64,000 bases of DNA. It comes from an uncultured Comamonas sp. Lineage in GTDB: Bacteria; Pseudomonadota; Gammaproteobacteria; Burkholderiales; Burkholderiaceae_C. The notes beneath the pieces were generated by a model that was not told where the DNA came from, made no database searches, and saw only the letters and a list, made by a program, of their open reading frames with translations. Position numbers and translations under genes: made by a program. Positions within the stretch are counted from its first letter, which is position 1, and each line of letters begins with the position of its first letter. The stretch spans positions 1 through 64,000 of the forward strand of contig CABIIJ010000041.1 in assembly GCA_902175065.1 (NCBI GenBank). Direction: 5' to 3'. Below, piece by piece: positions 23,756 through 63,367 of this stretch.

Positions 23756-23846
23756 AAAAAAGAGCTGTTTCCGATTTTATTTATTGGATTTCAGATAGCT
23801 TTAAATCTGAAATCTTTTGAATATAAGTGGAGGCAGCTCTTTTTTT
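23756..23846. repeat. Nested palindromic intergenic repeat, copy C
   Basis: Outer arms AGAGCTGTTTCC (23761-23772) and GGAGGCAGCTCT (23829-23840) pair at 10 of 12 and are flanked by an A run on the left and a T run on the right. The inner arms are GGATTTCAGAT (23786-23796) and ATCTGAAATCT (23805-23815). It separates the convergent pgi and creatininase genes and has the form of a bidirectional terminator; the creatininase stop codon lies at its edge. Confidence 0.85.
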
Positions 23847-31407: not shown

Positions 31408-31492
31408 AAAGAGCTGTTTGCGCTTTTATTTAAAGGATTTCAAGCATGAAAATACATGAAATCCTTTATTAAAAAGCGCAACCAGCTATTGA
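31408..31492. repeat. Nested palindromic intergenic repeat, copy D
   Basis: Outer arms AGCTGTTTGCGCTTTT (31412-31427) and AAAAGCGCAACCAGCT (31472-31487) pair at 15 of 16. The inner arms TAAAGGATTTCA (31431-31442) and TGAAATCCTTTA (31457-31468) pair fully. It lies between the convergent priA and YdjC/ChbG-family genes; the stop codon of the latter is inside the right arm. Confidence 0.85.
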
Positions 31493-33979: not shown

Positions 33980-35465
33980 ACCGCACACAGGCCACAGGCA
34001 CGTAGGCCCGCCAATGCAGCACCCAGGGCTGGCCGTTGAAAGGCCAGGCCAGCGCCCACTGCCCAGCGTGCCAGAGTCCATCCTGGGGCAGCGCATCCAT
34101 CGGGGCGGGCGGGGCCGGTTGTTCACTGCCCTGCCACAGCCAGAGCACGCCGCGCGTTTGCAGGCGCTCCAGGTTCACCCAGGGGGAAAAGCGGGCGTCG
34201 TGGTTGATGAGCACCGAAGGGCCGGAGGCCTGCGCCGTCGCCACCAGGGCCGTCAGCCAGTAATCGCCCGCCACCACGTCCAGGGGGCAGGTGCTCACGG
34301 CATCCCAGGTGCGCTGGGCCTGCGCAGCCAGGGCCGCCTGGGGCCAGTCGGTGCGCGACGGGCGCTGGCGCCACTGGGCGCCGTAAGCCAGAAACACGTC
34401 CGTCAGCAGCGTGATCAGCACCAGCCACACGGCCAGCCCGCGCAACAAGGGCCGCTGCGCCGCCGGCAGCCATGCCTGCGGCCATACGGCCATCAGCAGC
34501 AGGCCGCTGAAGGCCCACATCGGCATTCCCCACATATCGTGGACGCCCAACCCGGTGACCAGCCCCAGCACCGTGACGAGCAGCCCCGAGCCAACCGCCA
34601 CGGCCAGCACATAGCCGGGCAGCGCCGTCTGCCAGCGCCATGCACCCAGCCCGGGGGCTGCCCGACGGGCACGCCAGGCAGCCACTGCGGCAATCACCGC
34701 CAGCGGCAGGTGGTTGAGCAGTTGGGTGAGCAGGAAGTCGATGGCGGCGCGGGTCGGATGGCTGCTGGCGCGGCTGCTGGCGTACGTCAGCGGCAGCCAG
34801 TCGTTGCGCACCAGCCAGGCCAGGTGCGGCGCGAAGATCGCCAGGCCCACCGCCACGGCCAGCCACGGCCCGCTCTGGCGCAGCACGTGGCGCTGCGCTG
34901 CCAGCAGGTACAGCCCCTGCACGATGAGCAGGATCGCCACGGAATACTTGGTCAGCATCCCCACCCCGGCCCACAGCCCCCACAGCAGCCATTGGCGCCT
35001 GCGCCCGTCCTGCAAGGCAGCCAGCAGGCCATGCCCCAGGCCCGCCCAGATGGGCATTTGCGCAATGTTGTGGTTGAACTCCAGCGCCGGGCGCGTGTAG
35101 TAGACCACCGCCATGGTCAGCAGGGCGGCCAGCACGGCCCGCTGCCGGTCCACCAGCCGCAGCGCCGTGCGCCAGACCAGGTACAGCGTGGCGGCAATGC
35201 ACAACTGGCTCAGAAGAAAAGGCCCCGCCTTGCCAAAGACCCGATAGAAACTGTGCAACACCCACGGGGCCAGCGGCGGATGCTTGTAATACCCCCATTG
35301 CCATTCACGGCCCCAGGACAGGCTCTCGGCCACATCCAGGGGAAAGCTGCTGGACAAGAGCGGCGGCAGCACCGACCACACGACGATATAGAGCAGCGCC
35401 CACGTGGCAATGGAACGCCAGGCGATGGCCGGGGAAGAGGTCGGGGGCATGGGGACAGCGGACAT
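33978..35465 (-). CDS. GT39/ArnT-like membrane glycosyltransferase
   Basis: A 495-residue integral membrane protein with about 11-13 hydrophobic helices. The first periplasmic loop carries PLDVAESLSWGREWQWGYYKHPPLAPW, the acidic D-x2-E and YYKHPPL hallmark of the PMT_2 (ArnT-like) family. Such enzymes use polyprenyl-phosphate sugars as donors. With the downstream GT2, GtrA and deacetylase genes it could place an amino sugar on lipid A or another surface lipid; the acceptor is unknown. Its stop codon falls in the end of a foldback element, so the C-terminal residues may derive from the insertion junction. Confidence 0.85.
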   Translation of the reverse strand: MSAVPMPPTSSPAIAWRSIATWALLYIVVWSVLPPLLSSSFPLDVAESLSWGREWQWGYYKHPPLAPWVLHSFYRVFGKAGPFLLSQLCIAATLYLVWRTALRLVDRQRAVLAALLTMAVVYYTRPALEFNHNIAQMPIWAGLGHGLLAALQDGRRRQWLLWGLWAGVGMLTKYSVAILLIVQGLYLLAAQRHVLRQSGPWLAVAVGLAIFAPHLAWLVRNDWLPLTYASSRASSHPTRAAIDFLLTQLLNHLPLAVIAAVAAWRARRAAPGLGAWRWQTALPGYVLAVAVGSGLLVTVLGLVTGLGVHDMWGMPMWAFSGLLLMAVWPQAWLPAAQRPLLRGLAVWLVLITLLTDVFLAYGAQWRQRPSRTDWPQAALAAQAQRTWDAVSTCPLDVVAGDYWLTALVATAQASGPSVLINHDARFSPWVNLERLQTRGVLWLWQGSEQPAPPAPMDALPQDGLWHAGQWALAWPFNGQPWVLHWRAYVPVACVR

Positions 35466-36581: not shown

Positions 36582-37013
36582 TCAACGGATCAGCATCACC
36601 GGCACGCCGCAATTGGCCAGCACCTGGGTGCTGACCGAACCCATCACCAGCCGCCCCAGCGCGCCGTGGCCATGGGTGCCCATGATGATGAGGTCGTACT
36701 TGCCCTCCTCGGCCACGCGGGCGATGACCTCGCCAGCCGGGCCGATTTCGAGCTGCTCCTTGGGGGTGATGCCGCTTTGCTCCAGGTACTTGCGCACGGG
36801 ATTCAGCACTTTGGCACCTTCTTCGCGGTAGTACTCGTCGAGCATTTCCTTGCTCAGGACGGCACGGGCGCGTGGCGGCATGGCGGGCATGACCGTCAGG
36901 GCCGTGAAGCTGTTGCGTCCGACGCTGATCAACTCGTCGTGGGCGCCCAGGTAGGCGAGCATTTTTTTGGTGTAGGGGCTGCCGTCGACAGCCAGCAAGA
37001 TTTTCATGGTCAT
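36582..37013 (-). CDS. Universal stress protein (UspA family)
   Basis: A 143-residue single-domain Usp protein. MKILLAVDGSPYTKKML is the first strand with its conserved Asp, and the C-terminal ATP-binding signature is IIMGTHGHGALGRLVMGSVSTQVL. Usp proteins are induced by starvation and stress and may bind ATP. The start has a GGGAGAA ribosome-binding site. A strong terminator follows; the gene is monocistronic. Confidence 0.92.
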   Translation of the reverse strand: MTMKILLAVDGSPYTKKMLAYLGAHDELISVGRNSFTALTVMPAMPPRARAVLSKEMLDEYYREEGAKVLNPVRKYLEQSGITPKEQLEIGPAGEVIARVAEEGKYDLIIMGTHGHGALGRLVMGSVSTQVLANCGVPVMLIR

Positions 37014-37140: not shown

Positions 37141-37161
37141 AAATAGGAACCATTTCTATTT
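37141..37161. promoter_or_regulatory. Candidate Fur-type operator upstream of the TonB-dependent receptor
   Basis: AAATAG, 9 bases, CTATTT forms an AT-rich 21-bp palindrome 12 bases upstream of the receptor start codon, next to a possible -10 element (GATAAT at 37132-37137). Its position and composition fit an iron-responsive operator, but it is not a close match to the classical Fur box. Confidence 0.35.
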
Positions 37162-37173
37162 CTATTCAATCTC

Positions 37174-39144
37174 ATGCCGTTTACTCTTCCCTCCCCACGC
37201 ACCCATGCGCTTGCACGCCGGCCTGTCGCCCTGGCTGCCTTGCTGTTTTTCGGCACGACCCATGCGGCGGATGACATCCTCCTGGCGCAAGCCCCCTCGC
37301 ACACGCTGCAGGCCGTGACCGTCACGGCCACCATGACCGAGCAGGACGCCCGCACCGCGCCCGCCAGCGTGACGGTGGTGACCGAGGAGGAACTGGCCCA
37401 GCGCAACGCCGCCAACCTGCTCGATGCCGTGCGCGGCACGCCGGGGGTGACTTTTCAGGGGCGGCAGGTGGGCGGGCGCAAGACGCTGGCGCTGCGCGGC
37501 ATGGAGGGCAAGCACACGCTGACGCTGATTGATGGGCGGCGCATCAGCGCCAGCGATGACGTGATTGGCCACTCCGACTACCAGTACGGCTGGCTGCCCA
37601 TGGCGGCGGTGGAGCGGGTGGAGATCATTCGCGGCCCGCTGTCGGCGCTGTACGGCTCGGAGGCGCTGGGCGGGGTCATCAACCTGATCACGAAAAAGCC
37701 CAAGGACCGCTGGATGGCCTCCATCGGCCTGTCCGGCGCCACCGGGCTGGATTCGGACACGGCGGCAGATGCCTTGCGCACCTCGGTGTATGCCGCTGGC
37801 CCGCTGGGCGAGCAATTCAACCTGGCCATCAACGCCGAAAAGTCTTACCAGGGCAGCACCGTGCTGCCAGAAGACCGCGCCCAGTCCGAGATCGAGGGCA
37901 ACCGCACACGCAGCCTGGGGCTGACCGCCAGCTGGCAGCCCGTAGCCGGGCATGAGGTGGAGTTTGGCGTGCAAGACGGCCTGGAAAAGCGCGATTCCGA
38001 CGACATCAACCGCACCCCCACGTATTACCACAACCGCTACGAGCTGGACCGCACGCAAAAGCACGCCAGCTGGAGTGCCGATTGGGGCAATGGCTGGCGC
38101 AGCCAGTTGCGGGCCTACCGCAGCGACATCAGCATCCGCAACTTCCGCGACAACGGCGTGGCCGCCACGCGCCCGCAGGACATGCGCGACAGCGTGATCG
38201 ACGGCCACGCCACCACGCGCTGGGGCAGCCACCAGATCACCGTGGGCGGCGAGTGGCGCAAGGAAGAGCTGGTCAATGCCGGGCTGAAAAACGGCCGGGA
38301 CGAGGCCACGCACAAGGCGCTGTTCGTGCAGGACGAGTTCGCCCTGGGCCAGAACCTGATGGCCACGCTGGGCCTGCGCGGCGACCACCACGAGATTTTC
38401 GGTTCGGAAGTCAGCCCGCGTGCCTATCTGGTCTGGGAGGCCAGCCCGGCGCTGGTCGTCAAGGGCGGTTATGGCCACGCTTTCAAGGCGCCCACGCTCA
38501 AGCAGATTTCGCCCAACTACGTCGGCGCCGAAGGGCCGCACTCCTTCCTGGGCAACGGCAACATCCAGCCGGAAACCTCGAACGCCTTCGAGCTGGGGGC
38601 CAACTGGCAGGCCGCGCCGCAACTGGCGCTGCGGGCCACGGTGTTCCATACCGAAGTCAAGCAGCTCATCACCTACCGCCTGCTGCAAAAGGTCGGCCCG
38701 CGCAGCATCTACCAGTACGACAACGTGGATGCCGCCCGCATCCAGGGGCTGGAAGCCGGTTTCACCTGGGACATCACCCCGCGCCTGCAATGGAGCAACG
38801 ATGCCACCTGGCTGCACACCCGCGACAAGACCACGGGCAAGGAGCTGAGCGACCGCCCGCGCCTGGCGTGGAACTCCAACCTGGTATGGCAGGTGCAGCA
38901 ATGGCGCACCCAGCTGGGCGCGGAATACACGGGCAGGCAGGAAAGCAGCGGCGTCCGCCTGCCTGCCTACACGCTGTGGAACGCCAGCGTGGGCCGCGCC
39001 TGGAAGCTGGGCGGCGAGCGCCAGTTCCACCTGAGCACCGGCATCCAGAACCTGGGCAATGTGCGGATGCAGGAGGAATCGCCCAACTTCGGCTACGCCG
39101 AGCAGGGGCGGCGCTTCTTCGTCAATGCGCGGATGGATTTCTAA
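37174..39144 (+). CDS. TonB-dependent outer-membrane receptor, HmuR-like
   Basis: A 656-residue receptor. A signal peptide ends near residue 31 (TTHAAD) and a TonB box, LQAVTVTAT, lies at about 45-53. A plug domain follows with LLDAVRGTPGVTF, LIDGRRIS, VERVEIIRGPLSALYGSEALGGVINLIT, then a 22-strand barrel ending in NARMDF with the terminal Phe of porins. GHAFKAPTLKQISPNY and NIQPETSNAFELG sit where the FRAP and NPDL boxes of haem receptors occur. With the chelatase and ExbB/D-like genes downstream, haem or another tetrapyrrole is the likely ligand; cobalamin cannot be excluded. It is probably the first gene of the operon. Confidence 0.85.
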   Translation: MPFTLPSPRTHALARRPVALAALLFFGTTHAADDILLAQAPSHTLQAVTVTATMTEQDARTAPASVTVVTEEELAQRNAANLLDAVRGTPGVTFQGRQVGGRKTLALRGMEGKHTLTLIDGRRISASDDVIGHSDYQYGWLPMAAVERVEIIRGPLSALYGSEALGGVINLITKKPKDRWMASIGLSGATGLDSDTAADALRTSVYAAGPLGEQFNLAINAEKSYQGSTVLPEDRAQSEIEGNRTRSLGLTASWQPVAGHEVEFGVQDGLEKRDSDDINRTPTYYHNRYELDRTQKHASWSADWGNGWRSQLRAYRSDISIRNFRDNGVAATRPQDMRDSVIDGHATTRWGSHQITVGGEWRKEELVNAGLKNGRDEATHKALFVQDEFALGQNLMATLGLRGDHHEIFGSEVSPRAYLVWEASPALVVKGGYGHAFKAPTLKQISPNYVGAEGPHSFLGNGNIQPETSNAFELGANWQAAPQLALRATVFHTEVKQLITYRLLQKVGPRSIYQYDNVDAARIQGLEAGFTWDITPRLQWSNDATWLHTRDKTTGKELSDRPRLAWNSNLVWQVQQWRTQLGAEYTGRQESSGVRLPAYTLWNASVGRAWKLGGERQFHLSTGIQNLGNVRMQEESPNFGYAEQGRRFFVNARMDF

Positions 39145-39152
39145 TTTAAAAG

Positions 39153-39232
39153 TAGCTTTTTCCGCTTATCAACATTGGATTTCAGATAGTTTTCTATCTG
39201 AAATCCTTTATTCATCTGTGGAAACAGCTATC
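39153..39232. repeat. Nested palindromic intergenic repeat, copy E
   Basis: The inner arms GGATTTCAGATAG (39177-39189) and CTATCTGAAATCC (39194-39206) pair perfectly. The outer arms TAGCTTTTTCCGC (39153-39165) and GTGGAAACAGCTA (39218-39230) pair at 11 of 13. It lies between the receptor and the CobN-like gene in the same operon. Confidence 0.85.
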
Positions 39233-39265
39233 AGTAACGATGCTTACCGTCCGGGTCAGGCTGTG

Positions 39266-42200
39266 ATGAAAAAATTTTTCCAACTCTGGTGTTTCTGGCT
39301 GCTGGCGCTGGGCTGCAGCGCGGCCTGGGCGCAGCCGCCCGGTGCGGTGCCCTCGGCCTCTGCGCAACAGCCGCCGCTGTCGGTGCTGTTCATTGCCACC
39401 GGCAACGTGCCGGCAGGCAAGTTCCGCCAACTGGCCGCGATTGCCGCGCCCTACGGCGTGGCGGTGCAGGTGCGCTACCTGCACCGCATTGCCAAGAACA
39501 GCGACGGCGGGCTGTGGCAGGGGCACGACGCAGTGTTTTTTGACAGTTACCTGGTCGATGAAGTGCGCGAGCACCTCGCCCCCGCCCTGCCCCACCTCAC
39601 GCAGCCGCACATGTGGCTGTACGGCCCGCAGGCCCAGGCCAGCGGCCTGCCGGATGCGCTGGCCCAGCCGCTGCACCGGTTCTACGTGAATGGCGGGCGG
39701 CAGAACTTCGAGGGCTTTTTCGCCACCCTCGGCGCCCATCTGCGCGGCCAGCCGCAGCCGCAGATCGCCGCGCCGGTGGTCTACCCCAAGGCCGCCATCT
39801 ACCACCCGCAGGCGCCGCAGCAGGTGTTTGCCACCGCGCAGGACTATTTCGCCTGGAAGGGCGTGAATCCCGCCGCCCCGCGCAGCCAGCGCCCGGCCAT
39901 CATCGGGCTGGCGCTGCACCAGCAGTACATCGCCTCCATCCAGACGGACTTCATCGACGACCTGATCGGGCGCATCGAGGCCAGCGGCGCGGTCGCCCTG
40001 CCGTTCTACACGCCGATGATGGAACCCAAAGGCTTCACCCGCCTGCTGCAAGACGCGGCGGGCCGCCCGCTGGTGGACGTGCTTATCACCACGCAGATCA
40101 TGCTCAACGCCGAAGACCGGCGCAGCGAATTTGCCGACCTGGGCGTGCCCGTGCTGCAAGCCATGCCCTACCGGCGCGGCGAGCCGGAGGATTGGGCGCA
40201 AGACCCGCACGGCGTAGCGCTGATGGACGTGCCCTTCTACCTGGCCCAGCCCGAATACGCGGGCGTGACCGACATCCAGGTGGCCGCCGCCACGCGCAAG
40301 AGCGACGACCAGATCGTCGCCATCGCCCCGCAGGCCCAGGCCGTGGTGGGCAAGGCCGTGCGGCTGGCCAGGCTGCAAAGCACCCCCCATGCCGACAAGC
40401 AGGTGGCGGTGATGTTCTGGAACTACCCGCCGGGCGAGAAGAACCTGAGCGCCTCCTTCCTGAACGTGCCGCGCAGCCTGCGCCGCGTGCTGGACGGCAT
40501 GCAGGCCGCCGGCTACGACACCACGACGCCGGAAGAAGACGCGCTGATCGCGCAGCTCCAGCAACTGCTGGCCCCCGCCTACCGCGCAGGCCGCTTGCAG
40601 CCCCTGCTGCAGGCCGGATTGGCCGAGCTGCTGCCGCTGGCCGACTACCGCGCCTGGCTCACGCAACTGCCCAGCGCCACGCAGGCGGCACTCAACGCCG
40701 CCTGGGGCGACCCGGCGCAGTCGCGCATGGTCGTGCGCCGGGGTGGGCAGGACTTTTTCGTCATCCCGCGCCTGCAACTGGGCAAGGTACTCATCCTGCC
40801 GCAGCCACCGCGCTCCGACGGACAGGTGAACAAAGAGAAGGCCATCTACCACTCCACCACCGCCCTGCCCTCGCACTACTACTTCGCCACCTATTTGTGG
40901 ACGCGCCAGCACGCCGATGCGCTCGTCCACTTTGGCACCCACGGCACGCAGGAATGGCTGCCGGGCAAAGAGCGCGGCCTGTCCGTGTACGACCCACCCC
41001 TGCTGGCGCTGGGCGACATCCCCGTGGCCTACCCCTATATTGCCGACAACATCGGCGAGGCCACCCAGGCCAAGCGCCGGGGCCGCGCCACCATCATCAG
41101 CCACCAAACGCCGCCCTTTGCCCCCGGCGGCCTGCACGCGGCGCTGACGCAGATGCACGACCTGCTGCACCAATGGCTGGCGCAGGACGAAGGCGCGGTC
41201 AAGGAACGCATCGCCATCGACCTGCTGGCCGCCGCGCAGAAAGAGCGCGTGGTGGCCGACCTGGGCCTGACCTTGCCCCAAGTGCAGGCCGACTTTGCCG
41301 GTTTCGTGCGCCAGCTGCACGACCACCTGCACGAACTGGCGCAAACCGCCCAGCCGCAGGGCCTGCACACCTTCGGCCAGGCGCCGGAAGAACTGCACCG
41401 CCTGGGCACCGTGCTGCTCATGCTGGGCCAGCCCTTCTGGGAAGCGGCAGCCGCCCACGCCGGCGTGCCGGTGGAAGATGCGGACGAAGCCCTGGTCGGC
41501 CCCTGGGAGCAGCTGGCGCAGACCGTGCCCTACCAGCTCCTGCAACGCCACGTCGTGCAGGGCGCCGGCCTGGAGGGGCTGCCCGAGGCGCTGCAACAAT
41601 CCTTGCAGCAGGCCCGCACCGCCTACGCCAACCTGGGCGCACAAAACGAGCTGACCGGCCTGCTGGCCGTGTTGGACGGCCACTACCTGCCCACCTCCTA
41701 CGGCGGCGACCCGATCAAGAACCCCGATGCCTACCCCACGGGCCGCAACCTCTACGGCTTCGACCCCTCGCGCGTGCCCACCAAGCAGGCGTGGGAAGCG
41801 GGCAAGCAGGCCGCCGAGAACCTGATGGCCGAACACATCAAACTGCACGGCAAGGCCCCGGAAAAACTCACCTTCAGCCTGTGGTCGGTGGAGACCATGC
41901 GCCACTTCGGCCTGCTGGAAGCACAGGCGCTGTGGCTGCTGGGCGTGGAGCCGGTGTGGGACGACGGCGGGCGCGTCACCGGCGTGCAGCTGGTGCCGCG
42001 CGAACAACTGGGCCGCCCGCGCGTGGACGTAGTGCTGTCGGCCACCGGCCTGTACCGCGACCACTTCCCCAACGTCATGAAGCAACTGGCCCAGGCCGCG
42101 CTGCTGGCCAGCCAGGCGAAGGACGAGGCGGACAACCCCGTGGCCCGCAACGCCCAGCGCATCGCCCGCCAGCTCGTCGCCCAGGGGGCCGACGCCCAGG

Positions 42201-43387
42201 TGGCCGCACAGGCCGGGGCCACGCGCATCTTTGCCTCGGCCAGCGGCAACTACGGCACCGGTCTGGACGATGCGGTGCTGGCCAGCGACACCTGGAACGG
42301 CAAGGAGGAAGGCGACCGCAAGCTGGCGCAGCTCTACCTGTCGAAAATGCAGTACGCCTACGGCCCCGATGAAAAGCAATGGGGCCAGGCCGGCGTGGCC
42401 GGGCTGGAAGGCAGCCAGGGCGTGAACCTGTACGCTGAGCACCTCAAGGGCACGCAGGGCGCGGTGCTGTCGCGCAGCTCCAACCTGTACGGAATGCTGA
42501 CCACGGACGACCCCTTCCAGTACCTGGGCGGCATCGCCCTGGCCGTGCGCCACCTGGACGGCAAGGCGCCCGCGCTGTACATCAGCAACCTGCGCGGCAG
42601 CGGCGCGGGCCGGGTGGAAGGCGCGGCGCAGTTCCTGGCCAAGGAGCTGGCCACGCGCCAGTTCCACCCCGGCTACATCCAGGCTCTGATGAAGGAAGGC
42701 TACGCAGGCACGCTGCAAGTGCTGGATGCGACCAACAACTTCTGGGGCTGGACCGCCGTGGCCCGCGAAATCGTGCGCGACGACCAGTGGCAGGAAATGG
42801 TCGATGTCTACGTGCGCGACAAGCACAACCTGGGCCTGAAAAAGTGGTTTGAACAACAAAACCCCCACGCCCTGGCACAGACCATGGAACGGATGCTGGA
42901 AGCCGCCCGCCAGGGCTATTGGCAGACCGACGCGGCCACCGTGCAGGAGCTGAAAGAGCGCTGGCAGGATTTGTCGCAACGCTTTGACGTGCGCACCGAC
43001 AACGCCGCCTTTGCCGCCATGGTCGGGGCCAGCGCCCAGCCCGGCATCGGTTTCGGCATGGCCGCGCCCGGCACTGCGCCCACGGCCGCCGCGCCCCAGG
43101 GTGCCCGCGCCCTGCCTGCGCCACCGGCTGCCGCACCCGACCTGCCCGAACCGCCCGCCGCAGAACCGCCGCCCGCGCCGGAGCCGGAGCCACAGCCCGA
43201 ACCGGAACCCGAACCGCCACCGGAAGCCGAGCAGGAACCCCCGCCCGTCAGCGGCGTGCTGCTCCAGCCCGTCACCGCGCCGGATGCGCCGGACGGCCCG
43301 CCCTGGCGCCCTCTGGCCCTGGGACTGGCCCTGGCCGCCATCGCCGCCGGCGGCGCATGGCGGCAGCGGCGCAAGGCGATGCTATGA
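39266..43387 (+). CDS. Periplasmic membrane-anchored CobN-like chelatase (HmuS-like)
   Basis: A 1373-residue member of the CobN/magnesium-chelatase H-subunit family. Family motifs include WNYPPGEKNLSASFLNVPRSL, HFGTHGTQEWLPGKERGLSV, GNYGTGLDDAVLASDTW, LYGMLTTDDPFQYLGG and HPGYIQALMKEGYAGTLQV. Unlike cobaltochelatase CobN it has a signal peptide (about residues 1-22, ending AAWAQ). Its C-terminus has a Pro/Glu-rich stretch (about 1290-1345) and a transmembrane helix (about 1349-1366) with a positive tail RQRRK, so the bulk should face the periplasm. No CobS/CobT or ChlI/ChlD AAA+ partner is present. The closest known type is HmuS of Bacteroidota haem operons, reported to act on haem. The start was chosen for the signal peptide. 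Confidence 0.85.
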   Translation: MKKFFQLWCFWLLALGCSAAWAQPPGAVPSASAQQPPLSVLFIATGNVPAGKFRQLAAIAAPYGVAVQVRYLHRIAKNSDGGLWQGHDAVFFDSYLVDEVREHLAPALPHLTQPHMWLYGPQAQASGLPDALAQPLHRFYVNGGRQNFEGFFATLGAHLRGQPQPQIAAPVVYPKAAIYHPQAPQQVFATAQDYFAWKGVNPAAPRSQRPAIIGLALHQQYIASIQTDFIDDLIGRIEASGAVALPFYTPMMEPKGFTRLLQDAAGRPLVDVLITTQIMLNAEDRRSEFADLGVPVLQAMPYRRGEPEDWAQDPHGVALMDVPFYLAQPEYAGVTDIQVAAATRKSDDQIVAIAPQAQAVVGKAVRLARLQSTPHADKQVAVMFWNYPPGEKNLSASFLNVPRSLRRVLDGMQAAGYDTTTPEEDALIAQLQQLLAPAYRAGRLQPLLQAGLAELLPLADYRAWLTQLPSATQAALNAAWGDPAQSRMVVRRGGQDFFVIPRLQLGKVLILPQPPRSDGQVNKEKAIYHSTTALPSHYYFATYLWTRQHADALVHFGTHGTQEWLPGKERGLSVYDPPLLALGDIPVAYPYIADNIGEATQAKRRGRATIISHQTPPFAPGGLHAALTQMHDLLHQWLAQDEGAVKERIAIDLLAAAQKERVVADLGLTLPQVQADFAGFVRQLHDHLHELAQTAQPQGLHTFGQAPEELHRLGTVLLMLGQPFWEAAAAHAGVPVEDADEALVGPWEQLAQTVPYQLLQRHVVQGAGLEGLPEALQQSLQQARTAYANLGAQNELTGLLAVLDGHYLPTSYGGDPIKNPDAYPTGRNLYGFDPSRVPTKQAWEAGKQAAENLMAEHIKLHGKAPEKLTFSLWSVETMRHFGLLEAQALWLLGVEPVWDDGGRVTGVQLVPREQLGRPRVDVVLSATGLYRDHFPNVMKQLAQAALLASQAKDEADNPVARNAQRIARQLVAQGADAQVAAQAGATRIFASASGNYGTGLDDAVLASDTWNGKEEGDRKLAQLYLSKMQYAYGPDEKQWGQAGVAGLEGSQGVNLYAEHLKGTQGAVLSRSSNLYGMLTTDDPFQYLGGIALAVRHLDGKAPALYISNLRGSGAGRVEGAAQFLAKELATRQFHPGYIQALMKEGYAGTLQVLDATNNFWGWTAVAREIVRDDQWQEMVDVYVRDKHNLGLKKWFEQQNPHALAQTMERMLEAARQGYWQTDAATVQELKERWQDLSQRFDVRTDNAAFAAMVGASAQPGIGFGMAAPGTAPTAAAPQGARALPAPPAAAPDLPEPPAAEPPPAPEPEPQPEPEPEPPPEAEQEPPPVSGVLLQPVTAPDAPDGPPWRPLALGLALAAIAAGGAWRQRRKAML

Positions 43388-43392
43388 AAAGC

Positions 43393-43474
43393 GATAGCTG
43401 TTTCCGCATTCAATCAAACGATTTCAAAATCATTCATCCTTGAAATCGTTTGAATACCAGCGCAAGCAGCTCCC
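43393..43474. repeat. Nested palindromic intergenic repeat, copy F
   Basis: The inner arms CAAACGATTTCAA (43415-43427) and TTGAAATCGTTTG (43440-43452) pair perfectly. The outer arms AGCTGTTTCCGC (43396-43407) and GCGCAAGCAGCT (43460-43471) pair at 10 of 12. It begins 6 bases after the chelatase stop codon, inside the operon. Confidence 0.85.
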
Positions 43475-43509
43475 AAATTGATGAACCCGATTCCCAAGGA
43501 GCTTGACCC

Positions 43510-44079
43510 ATGACCAATCCGATCGAAACGACGATGTACGACATCAGTCAGTTCTTCCTCTACCCCGTGCTGCTGGCCATTGCCGCGCTGTTCGTCCACG
43601 CCTTCTACGCGCTCGGCGCATTCATCTGGCAGGCGTGGCAGCGTGCCCAGGGCAAGCCTGCGGGCTTCGAGCTGCACGCCCTGCGCCGGGCCGACCCGGC
43701 CATCGACCTGGTGGCGCTGGAAACCCTGGCCGTCAAACGCCTGGAATTTGCCCGCATCGCCACCCGCGTCGCGCCCATGCTGGGGCTGGTGGCGACCATG
43801 ATTCCGATGGGGCCGGCGCTCAAGGCCCTGGCCGACGGGGCCTTGCAGGACGTCTCGCGCAGCCTGATGGTGGCGTTTTCGGCAGTGATTCTGGCGCTGC
43901 TGGCCGCCGCCATCAGCTTTACCGTGGTGAACGTGCGCAAGCGCTGGTATTCCGTCGATCTGGCCGCCATCGAGGCCGAAATGGCCGCCCAGGCGCACCC
44001 TGCCGCCGCTGCGCACGACACGAAAGCGCCCCCTGCCGCCGCCGTCATGCCGCTGAAAAAGCAGGAGGTGGCCGCATGA
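43510..44079 (+). CDS. MotA/TolQ/ExbB-family proton channel protein (HmuU-like)
   Basis: A 189-residue protein. A first transmembrane helix lies near residues 14-38. The MotA/TolQ/ExbB core follows: RIATRVAPMLGLVATMIPMGPALKALADG and a last helix LMVAFSAVILALLAAAISFTVVNVRKRW. The GLxxTxxxMGxA pattern is the channel signature of ExbB. It would form, with the DUF2149 product, a proton-motive-force-driven complex serving the adjacent periplasmic chelatase or the receptor. Its stop overlaps the next start (ATGA). Confidence 0.87.
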   Translation: MTNPIETTMYDISQFFLYPVLLAIAALFVHAFYALGAFIWQAWQRAQGKPAGFELHALRRADPAIDLVALETLAVKRLEFARIATRVAPMLGLVATMIPMGPALKALADGALQDVSRSLMVAFSAVILALLAAAISFTVVNVRKRWYSVDLAAIEAEMAAQAHPAAAAHDTKAPPAAAVMPLKKQEVAA

Positions 44080-44462
44080 GTGCCACCTACCCGCCCGCCG
44101 AACCCATCGCGCACGGCGCCAGCGCCCAGGCCACGCGCCGCCGCCTGCTGGAGGACAGCGACGAGGACGACCCCATCCTCTCGGTCGTGAACCTGATCGA
44201 CGTCTTCCTGGTCATCATCGCCGCCCTGCTGCTGGCTGTGGCGCAAAGCCCGGCCAACCCGTTCACCGCCGAGCAGGTCACCGTCATCAAGAACCCCGGC
44301 AAGGAGAACATGGAGGTCATCATCAAGGACGGTGCCAAGATCGAGCACTACAAGGCCAGCGGCGAAATCGGTGAAGGCCAGGGGGCCAAAGCCGGCGTGG
44401 CCTACAGGATGAAGGACGGCTCCATGGTCTACGTGCCCGAAGCGGGCATGGCGCAGGAGTAA
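44076..44462 (+). CDS. DUF2149 protein (ExbD-like, HmuV-like)
   Basis: A 128-residue protein. An acidic N-terminus, LLEDSDEDDPILSVVNLIDVF, leads into one transmembrane helix (LVIIAALLLAVAQ), followed by a small periplasmic domain. The helix has an Asp at its start (NLIDVFLVII), matching the essential Asp of ExbD/TolR (TPFIDVMLVLL). This supports an ExbD-like partner role for DUF2149. DUF2149 genes accompany CobN-like and ExbB-like genes in Bacteroidota hmu operons. It ends the operon and is followed by a terminator. Confidence 0.83.
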   Translation: MSATYPPAEPIAHGASAQATRRRLLEDSDEDDPILSVVNLIDVFLVIIAALLLAVAQSPANPFTAEQVTVIKNPGKENMEVIIKDGAKIEHYKASGEIGEGQGAKAGVAYRMKDGSMVYVPEAGMAQE

Positions 44463-44480
44463 GTGCCTTCCCCTCCGTCA

Positions 44481-44506
44481 CACCCGCGCAGGCGGGTGTT
44501 TTTTTA
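44481..44506 (+). terminator. Terminator of the receptor/chelatase operon
   Basis: The perfect stem ACACCCGC / GCGGGTGT with loop GCAG is followed by seven T residues, 18 bases after the DUF2149 stop. Confidence 0.88.
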
Positions 44507-48875: not shown

Positions 48876-48960
48876 GATAGCTGCTGTCGCTTGTCATCCA
48901 ACGATTTCAGAATGATTTTCATCTGAAATCCTTATATAAAAAGCGGGAACAGCTATCAAT
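48876..48960. repeat. Nested palindromic intergenic repeat, copy G
   Basis: Outer arms GATAGCTGCTGTCGCTT (48876-48892) and AAGCGGGAACAGCTATC (48941-48957) pair at 14 of 17. The inner arms GATTTCAGA (48903-48911) and TCTGAAATC (48922-48930) pair fully. It begins 3 bases after the split-metH stop codon. Confidence 0.85.
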
Positions 48961-63271: not shown

Positions 63272-63367
63272 TCAAAAAAGAGAGCTTTTTCCACTATTGA
63301 GAAAAGGGTTTCATGGTGAAAACATCATGAATCCCTTTATTTATCAGTGGACACAGCTTCTTTTTAA
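63272..63367. repeat. Nested palindromic intergenic repeat, copy H
   Basis: Outer arms AGCTTTTTCCACT (63283-63295) and AGTGGACACAGCT (63346-63358) pair at 10 of 13 and are flanked by A and T runs. The inner arms AAAGGGTTTCATG (63303-63315) and CATGAATCCCTTT (63326-63338) pair at 12 of 13. It lies between the amidohydrolase remnant and the convergent recQ, whose stop codon is at its edge. Confidence 0.85.

Follow-up and report, generated by a model that had tools for sequence, protein, structure and literature searches.

A CobN-like chelatase operon with a Fur-box-like palindrome in Comamonas, a relative and not a copy of the gut-bacterial HmuS haem de-chelatase

We analysed a four-gene operon carried by a stretch of 64,000 nucleotides from an uncultured Comamonas sp. 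(contig CABIIJ010000041.1, positions 1 to 64,000; hereafter the window). Its central gene encodes a CobN-like protein, and the operon is a relative, not a copy, of that of the gut-bacterial haem de-chelatase HmuS. The four genes are intact and lie head to tail on the + strand: a TonB-dependent receptor, the CobN-like protein, an ExbB-like protein and a DUF2149 protein, the last two overlapping by 4 bases. The initial annotation had listed these components, with a leader and a C-terminal anchor on the CobN-family protein and a terminator at the end, and family matches and sequence features confirmed all of them. The features are:

37141–37161, no strand assigned: Fur-box-like palindrome AAATAGGAACCATTTCTATTT, 12 bp ahead of the receptor start codon, 16.7 bits
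37174–39144, + strand: TonB-dependent receptor, 656 residues, CirA/PA1922-like (PF00593, PF07715)
39266–43387, + strand: CobN-like (BtuS-type) class I chelatase homologue, 1373 residues, predicted exported and membrane-anchored (PF02514, 1008 bits)
40928–40945, + strand: HFGTHG motif, kept across the superfamily, with His559 corresponding to HmuS His538
42509–42520, + strand: DPFQ, a CobN-like signature, with Asp1082/Gln1085 at the places of HmuS His1209/Glu1212
43510–44079, + strand: MotA/TolQ/ExbB-family protein, 189 residues, HmuU/PA1924-like (PF01618, 28.6 bits, cut-off 22.9)
44076–44462, + strand: DUF2149 protein, 128 residues, HmuV/PA1925-like, with an ExbD-like transmembrane segment carrying Asp42 (PF09919, 103.5 bits)
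44480–44499, + strand: predicted intrinsic terminator, a stem-loop followed by TTTTTT

The link between CobN-like, ExbB and DUF2149 genes is beyond chance, as a search for conserved neighbourhoods, put forward in the initial annotation, bore out. Fifty loci were collected by scanning named genomes with the window CobN-like protein as query; they belonged chiefly to Burkholderiales and Rhodocyclales, with a few others, for example Pseudomonas, Azospirillum, Dokdonella and Methylobacillus. ExbB and DUF2149 matches lay downstream of the CobN-like gene in 45 of the 50 (the DUF2149 gene of L083 being cut by the contig end), and in L055, L056, L074 and L102 the contig ends before they could show. 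An upstream receptor was recognised in 42 of the 50 loci with the window receptor as query. DUF2149 was present in 24 of 150 genomes sampled from the taxonomic family and matched in 21 of 369 sampled from the class (20 over cut-off); a CobN-like gene adjoined it in 23 of the 25 family loci fetched besides the window. The CobN gene of L032 was missed by the window query and detected with relatives as queries.

To examine regulation, we dereplicated the 41 upstream regions obtained to 36, the window being excluded, and looked in them for a palindromic 21-mer by expectation-maximisation. The five best starts converged on AAATGAGAATcATTCTCATTT, the classical Fur box. The motif scored at least 18.6 bits in 27 of the 36 regions and at most 0.6 in the other nine; uncertain starts of several first genes may hide some boxes. 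The window site, at 16.7 bits, scores below all 27 motif-bearing orthologous regions. Scores of at least 16.7 bits occur at two positions in the 64 kb, with P=0.0018 per 200 bp when upstream sequence is resampled; the second position, 48904, falls inside a 78-bp repeat described below. Specificity was further gauged on the loci L053 to L102, where 1.00 Mb holds 62 such positions, upstream sites counted. From this motif, the operon is probably switched on by iron shortage.

A consensus-count Fur scan gave mixed results from locus to locus and picked position 37013 in the window, at a neighbouring gene start; it was superseded by the de novo motif. Separately, the heptamer GCCAGCC is repeated in the 200 bp before the receptor in L072, L078, L083, L084, L085, L089, L092 and L097. 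At least two copies occur in 8 of 36 Fur-type leaders, against an expectation of at most 0.26 per leader, and the repeat is absent from the window; no Rfam match was found at the leaders of six loci searched, and a cis-element is possible.

A hydrophobic leader stands at the N terminus of the CobN-like protein and a hydrophobic segment at its C terminus, preceded by a Pro/Glu-rich linker (80% Pro plus Glu over the 30 richest residues). The DUF2149-linked CobN-like proteins share the leader, where the start is sure, and the C-terminal segment after the linker, directly preceded in most of them by an xGMxLExV-like motif. No such terminal segment was seen in 12 canonical CobN proteins, in BchH (L149) or in L155. 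The anchor calls are plain hydropathy; by value the weakest linked row (L053, 1.16) falls within the span of the canonical rows, which reach 1.31, although the positions do not coincide. L105_6515 is an exception, with an anchor present though no DUF2149 was found in the fetched stretch. From these features and the tree below we infer an exported, membrane-anchored protein, distinct from CobN and ChlH, in keeping with the BtuS family. The BtuS name and the prediction of metalloporphyrin salvage go back to Rodionov et al. 2003, as cited in PMC6460266, and members resemble the window protein as CobN homologues with a signal peptide, a C-terminal anchor and no cob genes. The passages on BtuS in PMC6460266 mention neither a Fur-box-bearing proteobacterial clade nor an Asp/Gln active site.

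A quick maximum-likelihood tree of 57 proteins, with support from the Shimodaira–Hasegawa-like approximate likelihood-ratio test only, placed the 12 canonical CobN proteins and BchH on one side (13 rows, support 98) and the remaining 44, the window protein among them, opposite; the 12 CobN rows alone formed one side of a branch with support 99. We distinguished a Fur-type group (24 rows, support 99), a B12-type group (8 rows, support 100), two Zur-type Pseudomonas rows, with which Azospirillum brasilense L192 grouped (support 100), and an HmuS group of three rows, with which the Comamonadaceae protein L041 grouped (support 100). The Fur-, B12- and Zur-type rows with L192 and L104 made a 36-row group (support 100) with HmuS not inside. 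L155 and L149 are on long branches, of unsure placement. The phylogeny, proposed in the initial annotation, thus set the protein apart from CobN and BchH but did not put it within the HmuS clade. As L041 is a HmuS-clade protein of a Comamonadaceae genome, HmuS in that family looks different from the window protein. L041 (genome G016) carries PHGR and DHVYEF motifs and was perhaps acquired horizontally.

An AlphaFold model of residues 36–1230 (pLDDT 84.9, pTM 0.81) matched CobN best by Foldseek (7c6o, TMq 0.82), followed by HmuS (9d26, 0.77) and ChlH (4zhj, 0.71). HmuS active-site residues were taken from PMC12583661, in which haem de-chelation by HmuS is published. The His538 column holds His in every row, with one gap among the 24 Fur-type rows. 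At the His1209 and Glu1212 columns, Asp/Gln was found in all 24 Fur-type and all eight B12-type rows; canonical CobN had Asp in 9/10 and Gln in 10/10, and two archaeal CobN proteins Asp with Ala. His/Glu occupied the same columns in 4/4 HmuS-clade and 3/3 Zur-clade rows (two Pseudomonas and L192), and BchH had His with Asp. In these letters the zinc-linked type is like the haem enzyme and the iron-linked type like CobN, which we take as a caution against inferring the metal from active-site residues alone. The LSLDHxxEFMGG motif that holds His1209 and Glu1212 in HmuS is missing, the window reading LTTDDPFQYLGG. His254 of HmuS (His254-Gly-Arg, the head/neck haem site) corresponds to Ile278 in the window and to Ile in 24/24 Fur-type rows, with His in the Zur and HmuS clades and Leu in the B12-type. 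The methionine-rich insertion of HmuS, about 120 residues long, is missing as well: HmuS 702–930 had no counterpart in the alignment of the window protein with 9d26, and the methionine content of the window protein is 1.7%, against 2.9–4.6% in three Bacteroidota HmuS proteins and 1.5% in the HmuS-clade row L041.

These comparisons bear on the initial annotation, which had called the operon HmuR-S-U-V-like. On a strict identity it would be a plain betaproteobacterial hmu operon, with an HmuS orthologue performing NADH-dependent haem de-chelation and with ExbB/DUF2149 energising the receptor. Bacteroidota HmuS (9d26) and the window protein are indeed alike in fold, in the HFGTHG histidine, in anchoring, in HmuR/HmuU/HmuV neighbours and in the link to iron, and iron regulation would fit. 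The three hmu operons that we fetched (L103, L188 and L189) contain HmuY, receptor, HmuS, a hypothetical protein at the HmuT place, ExbB and DUF2149, in the same R-S-U-V order. However, the window unit has neither a HmuY nor a HmuT gene, His254, His1209, Glu1212 and the methionine-rich insertion are absent, the protein belongs to a separate clade outside that of HmuS, and the receptor is CirA-like. The HmuR-S-U-V identity is not supported, and we regard such an operon as an unlikely explanation.

The protein also resembles the cobaltochelatase CobNST in its PF02514 fold, in the Asp/Gln signature and in passing the NCBIfam model NF004644 (1371.6 bits, cut-off 1248), which would label it ‘cobaltochelatase subunit CobN’; it fell below the cut-offs of the other CobN models listed, TIGR02257 included. 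CobNST differs in being cytoplasmic, without a C-terminal anchor, dependent on CobS/CobT and encoded beside cob genes. Profile searches of the whole 3.2 Mb host genome gave one PF02514 and one PF09919 match, three ExbD matches, no CobS over cut-off (best 30.1 bits, cut-off 558.55; CobT was not searched) and no match to CbiC/CobH PF02570, the one cob family searched besides CobS. Cobalamin genes are lacking within the four-gene unit, and no cobalamin riboswitch was found in the window (no Rfam family at gathering score). With no CobS over cut-off, no CbiC, no riboswitch and a position outside the CobN clade, a cobaltochelatase of B12 synthesis was therefore thought unlikely, though NF004644 was passed. 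This agrees with the initial annotation, which had doubted cobalt insertion and had looked to a place inside the CobN clade together with cobS/cobT, or to a riboswitch upstream of the receptor, as signs against its own view; neither was found.

A role in corrinoid salvage, where cobalt would be added to or removed from corrinoids as by the B12-type paralogue, draws on the same Asp/Gln signature, common to CobN and the B12-type, and on the same NF004644 match. B12-type clusters hold CobB-, CobU-, BtuFCD-, BluB- (nitroreductase family), CobO- and CbiB-like genes; one of them, L046, combines a riboswitch with BtuB-, CobB-, CobU- and BtuFCD-like genes, ExbB, DUF2149 and CobN. It is like the window in having a paralogous exported CobN with ExbB and DUF2149, and differs in its ExbB-DUF2149-CobN order, its cobalamin riboswitch and its corrinoid genes. 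A cobalamin riboswitch was present in 7 of 10 scanned loci (L043, L045, L046, L048, L049, L051 and L052; L047 and L050 were cut short and L041 is not B12-type) and at the second cluster of L072. Against this role, the window has a Fur-like box instead of a riboswitch, the best Fur score being 6.0 across the seven B12-type loci that include promoters, and the operon is free of cobalamin genes in a genome without CbiC. We consider corrinoid salvage improbable.

The same gene order, receptor-CobN-ExbB-DUF2149, is found in Pseudomonas aeruginosa PA1922-PA1925, which is Zur-regulated (PMC9431628, PMC4542158, PMC8531726, PMC13083405, PMC11761036) and for which a role in zinc acquisition has been proposed; thus gene content alone does not give the metal. 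A paper on zinc starvation in Burkholderia cenocepacia (PMC10563805) does not name CobN. The Zur-type loci L185 and L186 (genus of Pseudomonas schmalbachii) share with the window the gene order and the receptor family (39–40% identity), and carry a Zur-like box upstream, GTTATAAC. With Fur scores of 5.9 and 3.5 bits, they have no Fur box. The Zur-clade rows L185, L186 and L192 differ from the window protein in their His/Glu active site, in place of Asp/Gln, and in the His at the HmuS His254 place. Upstream of the window operon, the best Zur match was 10/13 to the consensus and was equalled by 2 of 40 shuffles, and no consistent Zur motif was found in the Fur-type set. Zur regulation of the window operon was dropped for want of a convincing motif, and zinc acquisition appears very improbable here.

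Of the NCBIfam models, CirA came nearest to the window receptor (305 bits, cut-off 745), which was under the curated cut-off in all 25 matches listed of 32, the haem-receptor cut-off included; its best PDB match was the colicin I receptor (282 bits). His456, between the FKAP and GNGNI boxes, was kept in 26/26 window-type receptors and replaced by Phe in 2/2 Zur-type ones. FRAP/NPNL-like boxes were discarded as proof of haem uptake because they are too general.

Sister loci gave a clearer association. Among scanned first receptors not of the window type, 25 of 26 passed the haem/haemoglobin-receptor cut-offs TIGR01785/TIGR01786 (9/9, 10/10 and 6/7 by scan batch), the single miss, L062, having only a short frame that gave no match at 1e-50. 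The scan left out L029, L032, L033, L075 (a near copy of L072) and L088 (no frame found). The L091 receptor was of the window type and stayed below every cut-off. The second receptors that L059 and L072 carry between CobN and ExbB had no match at 1e-50, and for the BtuB-like receptor of L046 the best model was B12, under its cut-off. ChaN relatives were detected in 14 loci by tblastn with the L071 ChaN as query, within the operon in L033, L069, L071, L076, L078 and L099 and just past DUF2149 in L032, L037, L040, L066, L080, L096, L098 and L101; the haem-binding ChaN family PF04187 was confirmed in three of the 14 (L069, L071 and L078). The same search found no ChaN in the searched B12- or Zur-type loci or in the window. 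The predicted link to haem is thus well supported for the clade, and reaches the window itself only by kinship.

This association has to be set against the possibility that the receptor is a CirA-like catecholate receptor for a ferric siderophore and that the CobN-like protein strips iron from it, with no tetrapyrrole involved. The nearness to the CirA model and the colicin I receptor, the exchange of receptors between loci, and an ABC transporter with an NMT1-like binding protein adjoining one related plasmid cluster all speak for it. The class I chelatases with an established function are, however, known to have tetrapyrroles as substrates, and the orthologues at 48–68% identity sit beside haem receptors, some also with ChaN. 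We therefore give the siderophore explanation a small chance.

Other frames were seen near these clusters. A bacterioferritin-like protein lies near the cluster in L071, L077, L085 and L099 (PF00210 checked for the L085 copy alone). ABC-transporter ATPase-like frames, grouped by blastp and checked against Pfam for the L100 and L106 copies only, lie near the Fur-type clusters of L106, L060, L063, L087, L090, L095 and L100, that of L106 being accompanied by an NMT1-like binding protein, a cupin and a permease. The neighbour clustering was based on open reading frames and includes spurious ones.

We favour, at about even confidence, a Fur-repressed operon whose products remove the iron of an iron-tetrapyrrole outside the cytoplasm, haem being the likeliest substrate. 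In this scheme the TonB-dependent receptor would carry the ligand into the periplasm, where the CobN-like protein would be tethered through its C-terminal helix. The macrocycle would bind in the class I chelatase cleft, with His559 on one side and Asp1082/Gln1085 on the other, and the metal would be released, the reaction running in the direction of removal. Together the ExbB-like and DUF2149 proteins would make up a proton channel in the inner membrane, similar to ExbB/ExbD, and this channel may power the receptor or, as we prefer, act on the CobN-like protein itself. The channel would there stand in for the ATP-driven CobST/ChlID motor, the periplasm having no ATP. The wider proposal of the initial annotation, a periplasmic tetrapyrrole machine probably for iron, is supported in this form. 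In favour of the scheme are the de novo Fur motif, the haem receptors and ChaN relatives of sister loci, the ExbD-like segment of DUF2149, and a position apart from CobN and BchH in a genome that gave no CobS over cut-off, no CbiC, no haem oxygenase PF01126 and no HemS.

Several observations weigh against the favoured scheme. The active-site letters of the window protein match CobN and the B12-type, not HmuS, and NF004644 would name it CobN. The receptor is CirA-like, with a relative at the Zur-type cluster, and ChaN was found in 0/27 other loci with window-type receptors (a set not dereplicated). Chance scores of the Fur motif reached 20.4 (L103) and 17.0 (L188) in AT-rich Bacteroidota loci. 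In Bacteroides fragilis, mutating both btuS1 and btuS2 did not stop the release of protoporphyrin from haem (PMC6460266), a result that the 2025 HmuS work interprets differently (PMC12583661). B. fragilis needs FeoB for haem iron (PMC6460266), and the FeoB C-terminal domain was not found in the Comamonas genome.

The likeness of HmuU/HmuV to ExbB/ExbD was already published (PMC10100974), and both PMC10100974 and PMC12583661 assume that these two proteins drive the receptor. DUF2149 matched ExbD by hhalign over the transmembrane segment only (probabilities 75.7 and 79.0; seven controls at most 2.8), and Asp42 was found in 70 of 72 DUF2149 rows, with one Glu and one gap. PF02472 (ExbD/TolR) gave no match on the window DUF2149 protein, which matched the DUF2149 family alone at E 0.001, and its predicted model, of low confidence (pLDDT 62), shows one helix and then strands only.

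Coupling to the chelatase was considered because of four observations. In Trichlorobacter, a full ExbB-ExbD-TonB set adjoins the ExbB/DUF2149/CobN genes, and the Comamonadaceae plasmid L193 carries ExbB/DUF2149/CobN without a receptor in the 18 kb shown. Methanogens have no outer membrane, and Methanosarcina acetivorans, a control in our genome scans, matches both PF02514 and PF09919 (presence only); HmuS and HmuV homologues have been reported in Methanomicrobia (PMC10100974). Finally, over 32 loci, ExbB distances had a higher partial correlation with those of CobN (r 0.44) than with those of the receptor (0.20); the same test indicated receptor exchange between loci, and some automatically taken DUF2149 frames in it may be wrong. 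Other results speak against the motor. DUF2149 distances clearly track neither CobN (0.09) nor the receptor (0.11), L068 is a true exception without ExbB and DUF2149 matches, and L042 and L044 have ExbB-DUF2149 pairs in Comamonadaceae genomes without any PF02514 match. Methanosarcina barkeri is reported to have two BtuS and to lack the entire operon (PMC10846266). HmuS was active in a dialysed lysate with NADH and no ATP added (PMC12583661); since no proton gradient is expected there, this also argues against the idea. On balance, it is plausible that ExbB/DUF2149 drives the chelatase itself.

Since paralogues occur under B12 riboswitches or Zur-like boxes, one machine seems to serve several metals. 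We tentatively extend the scheme, in a form that is more doubtful than probable, to a metal-interchangeable chelatase machine driven by proton-motive force. ExbB and DUF2149 would act on the tethered CobN-like enzyme, not on the receptor, and replace the AAA+ ATPase of CobNST/ChlIDH. Fur would control its lineages for iron, Zur those for zinc and B12 riboswitches those for cobalt. The cleft would be of the porphyrin type (His/Glu) or of the corrin type (Asp/Gln), and the Comamonas lineage would demetallate an iron-tetrapyrrole in a cleft of the latter type. In the literature found, CobN-like haem de-chelation in the periplasm has been worked out in Bacteroidota alone. The open-access literature searched (subscription papers fell mostly outside the search) described neither the Fur-type clade nor its active-site signature, and did not raise the idea of a chelatase motor. 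The Fur-box-bearing Pseudomonadota clade, which combines links to haem receptors and ChaN with an active site of the CobN type, would give genetically tractable hosts beyond Bacteroidota for testing reversed class I chelatases, metal choice and a proton-channel-powered chelatase, and the unexplained Zur-regulated PA1922-PA1925 could be read as one metal version of the same machine. On a Runella plasmid (L191, 1–11842), ExbB, DUF2149 and CobN adjoin hyp hydrogenase-maturation genes and a protein weakly like the NicO nickel transporter (under cut-off), possibly a nickel version.

As we read the translations, the operon is flanked on one side by a universal-stress-type gene in divergent orientation and on the other by a phosphoenolpyruvate-carboxykinase-like gene in convergent orientation. 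The window CobN-like protein is 92% identical to its counterpart in Comamonas denitrificans (L053). Two gaps of about 120 bp inside the operon hold one copy each of a 78-bp repeat:

39153–39230, no strand assigned: 78-bp palindromic repeat in the receptor/CobN-like gap
43395–43472, no strand assigned: 78-bp palindromic repeat in the CobN-like/ExbB-like gap

No Rfam family matched this repeat. Further copies lie in the window at 1767–1844, 23762–23839, 31411–31488, 48878–48955 and 63282–63359, making seven against 0.2 expected, and each copy found is exactly 78 bp, with ends near TAGCTGTTTCCGC/GCGGAAACAGCTA. An ARAGORN call of tRNA-His at 34571–34642 (− strand) falls inside a 495-residue frame, where Rfam gave no tRNA, and is probably false. 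In C. denitrificans, repeats occupy the same two operon gaps.

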